Positions 6,980 through 26,716 of a stretch of DNA of 64,000 nt are shown here, one piece after another (within the stretch, counting starts at the first letter, position 1; each line of letters starts with the position of its first letter). The notes under the pieces are model-generated. The model worked only from the letters and a program-made list of their open reading frames with translations. It was not told the origin of the DNA and made no database searches. The stretch covers positions 1,550,001 to 1,614,000 of the forward strand of contig NZ_AP021861.1 in the NCBI RefSeq assembly GCF_009177095.1, read 5' to 3'. The translations under genes and the position numbers were made by a program. Source of the DNA: Lacipirellula parvula. Its GTDB lineage: Bacteria; Planctomycetota; Planctomycetia; Pirellulales; Lacipirellulaceae.

Positions 6980-7600
6980 ATGCCGTCGGTCACTTGTCCT
7001 GGCTGTGAGAAGAAATATAACCTCCCGGCGACCGCCGCGGGGCAGGTGGCGAATTGCAAATGCGGGAAGAAGTTCCGCGTTGGCGGAGCCTCTGCGGAAG
7101 CGAAGCCCAAGCCCGCGGTCGCCACCGCATCGGCAGCCAAGCCAGCGGCGCCGCAGCCGGCCGCGCGAGCGGTAGCCCCTGCGGCGCGCGTCGCCGCCCC
7201 CGCTAAGCCGGCTGCACCCAAACCGGTTGCCGCCGTCGCTACGCCGACTCGCGTGGAGGCGCCGAAGCCCAAACCGAAGCAGGACGACAGTTTCTGGGAC
7301 GACGTCGACAAGCCGCTCGCTGATCTAGAGCTGGAACCGGTCGAGGCGACGTCGCGGCCGGCAAGTGCGTTCCGCCCAAAGACGCCTGCCCCCGTTCAGG
7401 CTCCGCAGCAAAACATCGTGATGCGGATGTGGCACTCCCGTGCTCGCAAGCTGCTCATGGGGCCGCCGATCGCCGTCTTGGGAGTCATCATCCTGGTCTC
7501 GAAGTTCAACTCCGGCGAGCGGATTCCTCGGGGCGGATTTTTCCTGGTGGCGATTGGCGTGGGCATTACCTGGGCCGGGCTTACGGGCGAGAGCGAGTGA
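6980..7600 (+). CDS. zinc-ribbon membrane protein with Ala/Pro linker
   Basis: The 206-aa protein has an N-terminal zinc ribbon (CPGC at about residues 5-8 and CKC at about 28-30, then GKKFRVGG), an Ala/Pro/Lys linker of about 90 residues, an acidic segment (DDSFWDDVDKPLADLELE) and two C-terminal membrane helices (LLMGPPIAVLGVIILVS and FFLVAIGVGITWAGL). The ATG at 6980 is chosen because it places the ribbon at the N-terminus. The ribbon plus low-complexity linker plus membrane anchor is a recurrent planctomycete architecture of unknown role. The ribbon probably faces the cytoplasm. Confidence 0.8.
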   Translation: MPSVTCPGCEKKYNLPATAAGQVANCKCGKKFRVGGASAEAKPKPAVATASAAKPAAPQPAARAVAPAARVAAPAKPAAPKPVAAVATPTRVEAPKPKPKQDDSFWDDVDKPLADLELEPVEATSRPASAFRPKTPAPVQAPQQNIVMRMWHSRARKLLMGPPIAVLGVIILVSKFNSGERIPRGGFFLVAIGVGITWAGLTGESE

Positions 7601-7715: not shown

Positions 7716-9092
7716 ATGCCCGCCATCTCCGCCTTCCGCGGCATCCGCTACGATCTCGGCCACGTCGGTTCGCTTTCGGACGTGATCGCCCCGCCGTACG
7801 ACGTCATCGATCCCGCCCTGCAGGACGAGCTCTACAAGAAGCACCCGGCGAACGTCGTCCGGCTGATCCTCAATCGCGACGAGCCGGGCGACGACGAGCT
7901 CGGCAACCGCTACACCCGTGCAGCGCGGTTCCTCCGCAACTGGCTCCGCGAGGGGGTGCTCTTCACCGAGGGCGACCCGGCGATTTACGTCTACCATCAA
8001 GAGTTCGTCGAACGCGGCCAGACGTTCACCCGCCGTGGGTTCATGTGCCGGACGCGGCTCGAGCGGTTCGGCGAGGGGAACATCCACCCACACGAAGAGA
8101 CGCACGGCGGCGCCAAGGCCGACCGTTTTAAGCTTTGGAAAATGTGCCGCGCCAATCTCAGCCAGATCTTTGGCCTCTACCCCGATCCAGAGAACGAAGC
8201 CCAAAACATCCTCGAAGTCGCGATCATCGGGCAGACGCCGCTGGTGGCGACCGACCACCTCGGCACGATTCACCGCGTTTGGCCAGTGACCGACATCTCG
8301 GTGATCAACCAAGTCTCCGCGGTGCTAGCAGGCAAGCCGGCGTATATTGCCGATGGGCACCATCGTTACGAGACGGCCCTCAACCTCCGCGACGACTTGG
8401 CGGCGGAGTTCCAAGCGCGCGGCGAAGAGCTGCCCTCCGAGCATCCCGCCAACTTCGTGTTGATGATGTGCGTCTCGATGAGCGACGAGGGAATGCTCGT
8501 CCTGCCGACGCACCGACTCTTTCGCGGCCTGCCGGCGATGACCGCCGAGCAACTCAAGGCAAAGCTGGGCGAGGCGTTCGAAACGGAACCGGCCGGCAAC
8601 GGTCCCGAACGGGCGATCGGCCTGTGGGAGGAGATCGAACTCGAGGGTGACCAGGGGACGCTCGGGCTCTACACGGCCGAGGACAATCAGTGGACCTTGG
8701 CCCGGATTACCGACGCCGGGCGGCTGCGGATGGCGGAGATCGCCGGCGACCACTGCGAGGAATGGCAGGGACTGGGGGTAAGCATTTTGCACCGGCTATT
8801 GGTGGATGACCTGCTGACCGCGGGGATGAACCCCGCGGCTCGCCTGCCTGCACCCAAATACGTGCGGACGCTCGACGAGGTGCCGGTCGGACTCCGCGAG
8901 GGGGACGCCGCGGGGCGCGATCTGACCGGCCAAGAGGGGAGCGGCGGGCGGTTCGAACTCGCCGCCCTGGTGATGCCGGCGACGGTCGAGGACATCCAGG
9001 CGATCTCGAACGCCGGCGAACGGATGCCGGCGAAGAGCACGTTTTTCTTCCCGAAGCTGCTGAGCGGGTTGGTGATCAACCCGCTGGAGTAG
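7716..9092 (+). CDS. DUF1015 family protein
   Basis: The 458-aa protein matches the DUF1015 family from its start (AFRGIRYDL, VIAPPYDVI) through ADGHHRYETAL to the C-terminal GERMPAKSTFFFPKLLSGL. The biochemical role of the family is not established; the family members I recall lie near sugar-phosphate or amino-acid genes. A palindromic repeat is inserted in frame at about residues 366-378 and encodes TAGMNPAAR, in a region that I expect to be shorter in homologues. The reading frame remains intact. It is followed by a repeat and parS sites rather than by a co-transcribed gene. Confidence 0.9.
   Translation: MPAISAFRGIRYDLGHVGSLSDVIAPPYDVIDPALQDELYKKHPANVVRLILNRDEPGDDELGNRYTRAARFLRNWLREGVLFTEGDPAIYVYHQEFVERGQTFTRRGFMCRTRLERFGEGNIHPHEETHGGAKADRFKLWKMCRANLSQIFGLYPDPENEAQNILEVAIIGQTPLVATDHLGTIHRVWPVTDISVINQVSAVLAGKPAYIADGHHRYETALNLRDDLAAEFQARGEELPSEHPANFVLMMCVSMSDEGMLVLPTHRLFRGLPAMTAEQLKAKLGEAFETEPAGNGPERAIGLWEEIELEGDQGTLGLYTAEDNQWTLARITDAGRLRMAEIAGDHCEEWQGLGVSILHRLLVDDLLTAGMNPAARLPAPKYVRTLDEVPVGLREGDAAGRDLTGQEGSGGRFELAALVMPATVEDIQAISNAGERMPAKSTFFFPKLLSGLVINPLE
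8818..8843 (+). repeat. REP-like palindrome A inside the DUF1015 gene
   Basis: CCGCGGGG (8818-8825), ATGAA, CCCCGCGG (8831-8838), then CTCGC. The 26-bp core is identical to the copy at 10210-10235. It lies in frame within a coding sequence and supplies TAGMNPAAR to the protein. Confidence 0.85.
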
Positions 9093-9121: not shown

Positions 9122-9167
9122 GCGAGCCGAGGGGTTCATCCCCTCGGTCTTCGGGGGCACGCCCCCG
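9122..9167 (-). repeat. REP-like palindrome A variant beside parS
   Basis: This is the reverse-orientation copy: GCGAG, then CCGAGGGG (9127-9134), TTCAT, CCCCTCGG (9140-9147). The G-to-A and C-to-T changes keep the stem paired. A second short hairpin, CGGGGGC/GCCCCCG (9152-9158 with 9161-9167), follows directly. Confidence 0.75.
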
Positions 9168-9173
9168 CCAGAA

Positions 9174-9189
9174 CGTTTCACGTGAAACA
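9174..9189. promoter_or_regulatory. parS site 1 (ParB binding)
   Basis: CGTTTCACGTGAAACA matches the canonical chromosomal parS (TGTTTCACGTGAAACA) at 15 of 16 positions, with the central GTTTCACGTGAAAC palindrome intact. ParB, encoded 1.9 kb away, is expected to load here. Confidence 0.95.
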
Positions 9190-9224: not shown

Positions 9225-9240
9225 TGTTTCACGTGAAACG
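9225..9240. promoter_or_regulatory. parS site 2 (ParB binding)
   Basis: TGTTTCACGTGAAACG contains the full 14-bp parS palindrome and differs from consensus only in the last base. It is 36 bp downstream of site 1, separated by a short hairpin (GGCGAAG/CTTCGCC). Confidence 0.95.
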
Positions 9241-9281: not shown

Positions 9282-10031
9282 TCAGCTTCGAGCTTCGCGA
9301 GCCAGAATCGCATAGCCGCCCGTTTCACGTGAAACGGCTCGGATCTGTGCTATCCTTTCCGCCGCTCGTTCTCCCCACCGCGCGAACAGGCAGAGCGTCC
9401 CCGCCTGATAGGGAAGCCAAATAGCGACGAAGGTCAGGTCGCGAAGATCGAGCGGTCGTCGCCACTGCAGCAGCGTGAGCGTGATCGCCAAGCTTGCCGT
9501 GCCGATGAGCGCCGACCTGATCGAGAATCGCCAAGGGGCCGCGGGACGGCGCCGCCGGTCCAAGATCATTTCGATCAGCTCGCCACGGGTGGCGATATAC
9601 GCACCCGCCTGCCCCACGAAGGAAGCGAACAGCGGCCCCAGGACGAAGCCGAGCCAATCGGCGGGATGCACGATAGTGACACGCCCGCACGCGACGAACG
9701 AGGCGAAGCCCACCAGCCCGCCGAAGCAGGGTGCCGCCAGGGGGTGACGCCAAGTTCCGCAGACCGCGCGGACGGCCATGGCGAAGGGGACGACCAGCGC
9801 CACCGAGAAGAAACCCGCAATGGCGAATCCGAACACGGCGCCCACCAAGAAGATGGGAAGGCCATACCCTGCTCCGGCCACCGACACGCCGAGGATCGCC
9901 GTGACCCAGTAGCTGGCGACATCGAAGGCGGACTCGCACGGACTTGGTTGGTCCAAGCGAGAGTCGCCGCTCCGATCGCAAGCGGTTGGGAGCACAATCT
10001 CGATAGCGGTTGGGGAGTCGAACTTACTCAT
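9282..10031 (-). CDS. polytopic membrane protein, hypothetical
   Basis: The 249-aa protein has about six hydrophobic segments, including YWVTAILGVSVAGAGYGL, IFLVGAVFGFAIAGFF, GGLVGFASFVAC, WLGFVLGPLFASFVG and LTFVAIWLPYQAGTLCLF. It also has a RFSIRSALIGT motif of the kind planctomycete membrane proteins often carry before a helix. The start at 10031 (MSKFDSPTAIE) is preferred to one 84 nt upstream. No function can be assigned. It is divergent from parA, and its last codons overlap parS site 3. Base composition is normal for the window. Confidence 0.65.
   Translation of the reverse strand: MSKFDSPTAIEIVLPTACDRSGDSRLDQPSPCESAFDVASYWVTAILGVSVAGAGYGLPIFLVGAVFGFAIAGFFSVALVVPFAMAVRAVCGTWRHPLAAPCFGGLVGFASFVACGRVTIVHPADWLGFVLGPLFASFVGQAGAYIATRGELIEMILDRRRRPAAPWRFSIRSALIGTASLAITLTLLQWRRPLDLRDLTFVAIWLPYQAGTLCLFARWGERAAERIAQIRAVSRETGGYAILAREARS
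9321..9336. promoter_or_regulatory. parS site 3, within a coding region
   Basis: CGTTTCACGTGAAACG keeps the full 14-bp parS core. It lies in the 3' end of the adjacent membrane-protein gene, where it is read as VSRET, so the site is constrained both as DNA and as codons. Confidence 0.93.
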
Positions 10032-10209
10032 TCGAGCGGTTCCGAATTGAACGGCTGCTTCAGGCGGGCGCACAGCAGAGACGCCTGGACCCTCTGCTAT
10101 CACCCTATACCGCAATCGCCATCGGCAATTAACTGCCGTTGCGGCGACCGTTGCCGCTCCTACAATCCTGCCGGCAAAATCGTGGAATTGTGCGGGATTG
10201 CGCTGCGGA

Positions 10210-10235
10210 CCGCGGGGATGAACCCCGCGGCTCGC
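10210..10235 (+). repeat. REP-like palindrome A upstream of parA
   Basis: CCGCGGGG (10210-10217), ATGAA, CCCCGCGG (10223-10230), then CTCGC. It is identical to the copy in the DUF1015 gene and lies 65 bp before the parA start. Shortly after it come tandem GCCTGAACCC-like units (about 10263-10296). Confidence 0.85.
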
Positions 10236-10300: not shown

Positions 10301-11047
10301 ATGCCCCGCGTTATCTGCATCGCGAACCAGAAGGGGGGCGTCGGCAAAACGACGACCGCCCTCAACCTGGCGTGCGCGATCGCGATGTCGGGCGACCGGA
10401 CGTTGCTGGTCGACCTCGACCCGCAGTGCAACGCCACCACCGGATTGGGACTGATTCCGGACGCTCGCCACGCCCTGGTCGACTCGCGCCCACTGCGGGA
10501 ATCGTTCCGCGAGACCTACCTGCCGAACCTTTCGCTGCTGCCGGGCGCCCGCAGTTTTGAAGACGTCGACGCCTTGGCGAACTCGTCCGACTCCCGCTCG
10601 CTGATGCTAGCAACCCACCTCTCGGGCAGCCTTGGCTCGTTCGACTCGGTGCTGATCGATTGCCCTCCCTCGGTCGGCGCCCTCACCCGCACCGCGCTCG
10701 CCAGTGCTAGCGAAGTCCTCATGCCGATCCAGTGCGAGTATTTCGCGATGGAGGGGCTCACCCAAATGATTGAGGTAATCAAACAAGTGATGGGGCGGTC
10801 GAACAGCCGATTAGAATTTGGAGGAATTCTCCTCACCATGTACGACGCGACTTTGGAGCTTACCGCCGAAGTCGATCGCGAGGTGCGGGACTTCTTCGGG
10901 GGAATCGTCTTTTCAACCGTGATTCCACGAGATGCTGCGGTGTCCGAGGCCCCGAGCCACGGACGGTCGGTCATCGACTACGCCCCGCGTTCGCGGGGGG
11001 CTCGCGCCTACGTGGAACTCTGTCAGGAGGTATTGGAGCGTGTCTAA
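10301..11047 (+). CDS. parA: chromosome partitioning ATPase ParA (Soj)
   Basis: ParA is a deviant Walker ATPase that forms a nucleoid-bound gradient to move ParB-parS complexes. The 248-aa protein has KGGVGKTT at residues 11-18, a Walker A' LLVDLDPQCNATT and the switch DCPPSVGALTRTAL. It lacks the N-terminal DNA-binding extension of plasmid ParA proteins, so it is of the chromosomal Soj type. The ATG at 10301 is chosen because it sits just before the P-loop; upstream codons are repeat-derived. Its stop overlaps the parB start by 8 nt, and AGGAGG (11025-11030), inside parA, serves parB. Confidence 0.96.
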   Translation: MPRVICIANQKGGVGKTTTALNLACAIAMSGDRTLLVDLDPQCNATTGLGLIPDARHALVDSRPLRESFRETYLPNLSLLPGARSFEDVDALANSSDSRSLMLATHLSGSLGSFDSVLIDCPPSVGALTRTALASASEVLMPIQCEYFAMEGLTQMIEVIKQVMGRSNSRLEFGGILLTMYDATLELTAEVDREVRDFFGGIVFSTVIPRDAAVSEAPSHGRSVIDYAPRSRGARAYVELCQEVLERV

Positions 11048-26637: not shown

Positions 26638-26716
26638 GCGAGCCGCAGGGTTTATCCCTGCGGTGAAGCGGGGACTCGCTCGGCCATTCACCGCGGGGAT
26701 AAACCCCGCGGCTCGC
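26638..26716. repeat. inverted pair of palindrome A elements
   Basis: Two copies lie in opposite orientation: GCGAG-CCGCAGGG-TTTAT-CCCTGCGG (26638-26663) and CCGCGGGG-ATAAA-CCCCGCGG-CTCGC (26691-26716), separated by 27 bp. Loop TTTAT/ATAAA replaces TTCAT/ATGAA. The arrangement recalls REP pairs (BIME) of enterobacteria. Confidence 0.85.

Follow-up and report, generated by a model that had tools for sequence, protein, structure and literature searches.

A mobile, non-coding REP-like hairpin, GCGAG-CCNNGGGG-TTYAT-CCCCNNGG-TC, very probably entered a DUF1015 gene of Lacipirellula parvula after this lineage split from its nearest sequenced relatives. The window, a stretch of 64,000 nucleotides, comes from a genome of 6,922,258 bp in a single contig (G000), and contains a perfect 21-bp hairpin, CCGCGGGG-ATGAA-CCCCGCGG, at positions 8818-8838. 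The conserved repeat unit around it is 28 bp long (8816-8843) and consists of 8-bp arms, a 5-base loop and a GCGAG tag. An earlier note had described this element as a 26-bp palindrome; the repeat is real, but its palindromic part is the 21-bp hairpin, the remainder being a 5-base tag, which is not palindromic, and a tail of two bases. The following features of the window are relevant here.

7716..9092, plus strand: host gene, intact, encoding a DUF1015 (PF06245) protein of 458 aa; PF06245 match at 2.2e-87
8816..8843, minus strand (element strand): REP-like 28-bp repeat GCGAG-CCGCGGGG-TTCAT-CCCCGCGG-TC, inside the DUF1015 gene
8817..8843, plus strand: codons 368-376, repeat-encoded TAGMNPAAR; net gain of 5 codons over the nearest relatives
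9122..9149, plus strand: second copy, arms CCGAGGGG/CCCCTCGG, directly past the DUF1015 stop; G003 and G004 have orthologous copies
10208..10235, minus strand: third copy, 65 bp upstream of parA, the same as the intragenic copy at 28/28 bases; diverged orthologues in G003 and G004
26638..26665, plus strand: TTTAT-loop copy, left half of an inverted pair
26689..26716, minus strand: TTTAT-loop copy, right half of the same pair

The 10208-10235 copy precedes a ParA-type gene that starts with the ATG at 10301 and has parB behind it, and its full identity to the intragenic copy bears out what the note had said of the two. Three exact GTTTCACGTGAAAC sites (9175-9188, 9226-9239 and 9322-9335), where shuffling expects none, lie between DUF1015 and parAB; we take them to be parS-like.

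Folded alone as DNA, the hairpin reaches -12.1 kcal/mol (z -4.6). Scanning the window with up to three mismatches returned eight strand hits at five places, compared with a mean of 0.01 and a maximum of 1 in dinucleotide shuffles. Rfam gave no matches between positions 7000 and 12000. In the window, the GCGAG tag stands before 5 of the 32 hairpins classed as strong; in 370 kb of stretches picked around these repeats, it does so for 51 of 241. GC content is high in the repeat as well as around it, as would be expected of a chance palindrome in an ordinary coding stretch, but the shuffle expectation, the 67 genome matches against none for the control and a discrete indel relative to 50 homologues refute that origin, the probability of which we regard as negligible.

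Across the source genome, the pattern GAGCC-N3-GGG-N5-CCC-N3-GG has 67 matches at 66 places, since one palindrome matches on both strands. The same pattern occurs 51 times in G004, 21 times in G003, six times in G005, once in G001 and not in G002; reversed-pattern controls gave 0 in G000 and 0-1 across genomes. A stricter pattern was found in 8 of the 147 genomes, among them G076 (50) and G109 (41), which belong to other families of the order. We examined 65 of the 67 matches in G000, leaving out 228280 and 2899710. Covariation of the arms was assessed in 63 of these 65 rows, the palindrome listed on both strands being left out, and the variable positions were paired in 62/63 and 60/63 copies (shuffle means 26.5 and 38.5). 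Gene calls around the 65 matches, made with a simple codon model, place 47 outside any called gene, two at gene edges and 16 inside ORFs. Copies in G000 are mostly single, with few inverted pairs (for example 26638/26689). Among the 27 places listed for G109, eight inverted pairs have starts 56-58 bp apart (for example C36:9343/9400 and C55:1029/1086).

The host gene belongs to a family present in 135 of the 147 genomes searched. Its reading frame is open from 7716 to 9092 through the repeat, so that TAGMNPAAR is indeed read in frame with the gene intact, as the note had proposed. We aligned DUF1015 homologues in two sets that partly cover the same genomes. The peptide is missing from all 29 relatives in the first set and from all 50 in the second, for which 50 of 51 loci were used (L261 spans only residues 1-218). 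Nor does any of these 50 homologues carry a similar peptide without the palindromic DNA, the finding that the note had named as fatal to its proposal. The loop at the insert site has four residues in 45 of the 50 relatives, seven in three and nine unrelated residues in two; in the two nearest congeners, which are 90-91% identical, it reads GAAD and AAPT. Judged from these alignments, the insert is private to this Lacipirellula genome among the relatives aligned. The suggestion that the peptide might lie in a loop agrees with an AlphaFold2 model built from a 51-row alignment (mean pLDDT 91), in which residues 368-376 are predicted to form a coil between a helix (354-367) and a strand (381-383); confidence is lower for the block 371-380 (pLDDT 77). 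A comparison of the DUF1015 protein with solved structures gave one match, at chance level (E 0.36).

The insertion is a net gain of 15 bp, in which 12 ancestral bases were swapped for 27. Such a replacement of loop codons, rather than a mere addition, would also suit a local template switch or gene conversion, via microhomology, from the identical parA-side copy 1.4 kb away. The 28/28 identity of the two copies and the short words resembling parts of the repeat in the native site sequence of G003 and G004 point the same way. The identity names no donor, however, because the GCG/CGC arms of the intragenic copy recur in 28 of the 63 copies, and local switching leaves the genome-wide scatter of copies unexplained. 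We therefore consider a purely local event without transposition somewhat unlikely.

Insertion of a mobile hairpin into genes is not confined to DUF1015. The 16 intragenic matches are all in frame within ORFs, 15 of them besides DUF1015, and together use all six reading frames; a match at 5593651, which probably precedes the true start codon, and one at 2471550, which touches only a gene end, were left out of this count. Pfam supports XdhC, formyltransferase (Fmt), YjeF_N, M20 peptidase and alpha/beta hydrolase as hosts. Further hosts we take to be PutA (with two copies), Lnt, MtaB, HTTM, MfnB, an RNase HII-like protein and a PQQ-propeller protein. The encoded peptides fall into six types, one per frame: RA-GF-P-V (seven copies), EP-GSSPR (three), TAGMNPAAR (two), DR-D-P-GS (two), ASRGARPRG (one) and PGGRAPRL (one). 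In the sixth frame the common TTCAT loop contains a stop, and the single copy read in this frame has a CTCGT loop instead, which fits the survival of open frames only. In G076, 4 of 28 matches fall in called ORFs, all of them near ends or in doubtful N-terminal extensions, and the intragenic habit of this hairpin type is thus shown for Lacipirellula only. Downstream of the in-frame copy in the RNase HII-like ORF (L102, 2306-3607), GGINPPAR resembles a second, older copy in another frame.

Several of these copies are shared with relatives. In XdhC and MtaB the repeat is present in G000, G003 and G004; in M20, HTTM, formyltransferase, the RNase HII-like protein and a 207-aa protein it is present in G000 and G004 and absent from G003; in DUF1015 and the hydrolase it occurs in G000 only, compared with G003 and G004. 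Both the G003 and the G004 XdhC ORFs have a stop just before the start codon and are open through the repeat. At the MfnB-like site, G003 has no repeat and G004 has an altered, shortened one after a TAG stop. This hairpin is absent from G003 at both PutA sites and in Lnt, PQQ and YjeF; among the matches listed, these four proteins have no clear G004 counterpart, and an HTH protein has no homologue.

We compared codons between G000 and G004 at seven of the ten sites with a G004 homologue among the matches listed; two sites lack the repeat there (DUF1015 and the hydrolase), and the MfnB-like copy is altered. Within the repeat, 53 of 61 codons are identical, eight differ by an amino-acid change and none differs synonymously. 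The flanks of the same seven sites have 464 identical codons, 245 synonymous changes and 183 amino-acid changes. Among codons for the same residue, synonymous differences thus amount to 0/53 in the repeat and 245/709 in the flanks (Fisher p 6e-10), whereas the frequency of amino-acid changes (8/61 and 183/892) does not differ significantly (p 0.19). Among the eight changes are two compensatory arm pairs, which account for four of them: GGG/CCC to GAG/CTC in the formyltransferase and GCG/GCG to GGG/CCG in the 207-aa protein. Of the others, one lies in the loop and three at repeat edges. In the comparison with G003, XdhC differs by one synonymous change within the repeat and MtaB by one amino-acid change. 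We recognized shared sites by their surviving resemblance to the repeat, which biases the test against decayed copies, but with 35% synonymous differences in the background this bias alone is unlikely to leave none within the repeat. What the shared intragenic copies indicate is constancy of the palindrome as DNA, and, from the codon comparison, it seems to be the DNA palindrome that is kept rather than the peptide. Amino-acid changes without synonymous ones suggest that these residues are set by the dynamics of the element as DNA and not by selection on the protein.

It has been speculated for some REP-tagged proteins that the insert is selected for its amino acids, as a functional loop or binding peptide. 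The peptide EPGGSSPR of XdhC, which is the same in three species, and the retention of seven intragenic copies in a second genome could be read in this way. We nevertheless find selection for the peptide very unlikely: all six frames are read, giving unrelated peptides; eight amino-acid changes against no synonymous ones between G000 and G004 are the opposite of protein-level constraint; and the DUF1015 loop accepts four, seven or nine unrelated residues in relatives.

If the hairpin is mobile, a candidate for its mobilizer is a genome-encoded RAYT (TnpA-REP), as for canonical REPs. The source genome has a RAYT above the NF047646 cut-off at C1:1466133, with other Y1 proteins encoded at 2347180, 3206040, 5231267 and 5470829, and the repeat is like REPs and REPINs in its hairpin geometry, in the covariation of its arms and in its inverted pairs. 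We scanned about 55 distinct RAYT/Y1 loci, 30 in one set and 31 from five repeat-bearing genomes in another, with six common to both, covering 4/5 NF047646 matches in G000, 2/3 in G003, 5/5 in G004, 6/6 in G076 and 14/16 in G109. None is flanked by the GCGAG repeat. The L208 copy, which is that of XdhC, lies about 1.0 kb from the RAYT, and the L212 pair about 7 kb off. With a GCGAG tag in place of GTAG, GTGG or CGTC in addition, we judge it unlikely that this is a canonical REP moved by such an enzyme. At several scanned loci (L105, L108, L209, L210, L284, L285, L290 and L300), Y1/RAYT genes are flanked by other palindromes, for example GTAG-CCAGGGGC and GTCAGGCAC, which indicates that the flank test is sensitive. 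Planctomycetes of this order carry several REP families. The mobilizer of the GCGAG hairpin probably acts in trans, and the genomes in which to look for it are few: G000, G004, G076 and G109.

Palindromic DNA of the RPE-1 type is reportedly read in frame in many unrelated Rickettsia proteins (Ogata 2002; Claverie and Ogata 2003); its sequence presumably differs from that of the GCGAG repeat. The two are alike in that palindromic DNA is read in frame, and unlike in host phylum and in length, RPE-1 being described as longer (PMC3733652). The same paper reports REPs within ORFs for many bacteria of several phyla, with O. terrae and R. conorii the richest. It also describes CGTC REPs, including RPE-4 and RPE-6, as having no linked transposase, an 8-9 bp stem and a 4-5 base loop (PMC3733652). 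The earlier note had called an equivalent of the Rickettsia elements in a planctomycete-like genome notable. In-frame palindromic insertion holds, and at 15 further copies besides, but the case is less exceptional than it was made to appear, because intragenic REPs had already been published for several phyla (PMC3733652), and the repeat is by its tag no member of the CGTC group to which RPE-4 and RPE-6 belong.

Compared with the GTAG intragenic REPs of O. terrae and Thauera (PMC3733652), the GCGAG repeat is likewise a short, mostly intergenic hairpin with some in-frame copies in conserved genes, a patchy spread and inverted pairs. GTAG REPs flank the RAYT gene as an inverted pair (PMC2817692); in contrast to the GTAG superfamily, our repeat has the tag GCGAG, not GTAG or GTGG, and adjoins no RAYT-type gene among those scanned. 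With the CGTC REPs it shares the 8-bp stem, the 5-base loop, in-frame copies and the lack of linkage to the Y1 transposases scanned, while it differs from them in having no CGTC, TGTC or CCTC tag, a stem that starts with CC instead of AT and a tail TC(TTC) instead of CCA (PMC3733652). The inverted pairs of G109 resemble REPINs and the REP-RAYT system (PMC2817692, PMC3116915), unlike the mostly single copies of G000, for which no cognate RAYT was found. As a hairpin within 20-40 bp, in tens of copies and mainly intergenic, the repeat has the general properties of a REP-like element; its in-frame insertion in many intact protein genes is the property of an RPE-like one. On sequence features, we conclude that the GCGAG repeat acts like an intragenic REP or Rickettsia RPE and is, by its tag, a member of neither the GTAG nor the CGTC group. 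In our literature search we recognized no description of this family, its use of Lacipirellula genes or its codon-level signature. The kind of element is already known; what looks new is the family, together with its constancy as DNA.

A second hairpin shares the tag. This sister, GCGAGCCGGGNCGTC-N(3-5)-CCCCGGC, has the tag GCGAGCC and a CGTC-type loop. G000 carries it 43 times, and it was found in 16 of the 147 genomes (0 for reversed controls), among them G002, G003, G004, G011, G015, G016 and G115. It is in frame at PutA site 1 of G003 and G002, where it encodes RAGASPPPA, and in the MtaB loop of G011, so that the same loops have been struck by different GCGAG hairpins in different species. 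In the scanned transposase loci it appears twice, about 2.8 kb (L107) and 1.1 kb (L301) away, in neither case as a pair around the gene. The G003 peptides RAGASSPPP (RNase HII-like site, L190) and GGDAPAR (207-aa site, L199) resemble sister-hairpin remnants; the hairpin test was negative there.

The insertion of a mobile hairpin into DUF1015 could have proceeded as follows. Copying, by transposition or template switching, would have delivered the element to many places, and selection against disruption would have removed most insertions in genes. The DUF1015 insert may owe its survival to a net length divisible by three, a frame free of stops and the tolerance of the helix-strand loop that it entered; the peptide TAGMNPAAR would then be a by-product. 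Thereafter recopying or conversion between copies, correction templated by the hairpin, or a use at the DNA or RNA level might have held the palindrome constant as DNA. Three observations weigh against this account: no RAYT or other enzyme is linked to the repeat, the constancy rests on seven sites, and no precise 28-bp empty site or target duplication appeared when the 65 matches were aligned to the available G003 and G004 stretches, in which intergenic flanks were often too diverged or lay beyond the sequence.

A broader proposal, which we offer tentatively, is that the GCGAG hairpins form a third, transposase-orphan REP-like group beside GTAG and CGTC that is kept as DNA within genes. Their arms would be recopied or corrected, erasing synonymous drift and installing paired variants that change amino acids, and the same loops would be hit again across species. 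The loops of unrelated planctomycete proteins would thus be written by parasitic DNA or by a function at the DNA level. The insertions described here show that conserved proteins gain new segments from small palindromic elements outside Rickettsia and the published GTAG and CGTC REPs as well; where copies are shared, constraint on the DNA can be told apart from constraint on the protein inside one gene.

The copies in the source genome are unevenly distributed. With boundaries set post hoc, the two ends of its contig (below 345 kb and above 6.38 Mb) hold 32 of the 67 matches in 12.8% of the genome (binomial p 4e-12). Of the DnaA-domain genes in G000, a weaker one, at 6844061, lies in this repeat-rich contig-end zone, and a stronger one is at 3475026. 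On visual inspection of their flanks, the copies at C1:5161252 and C1:5164426 (L109) appear to adjoin ribosomal RNA genes.
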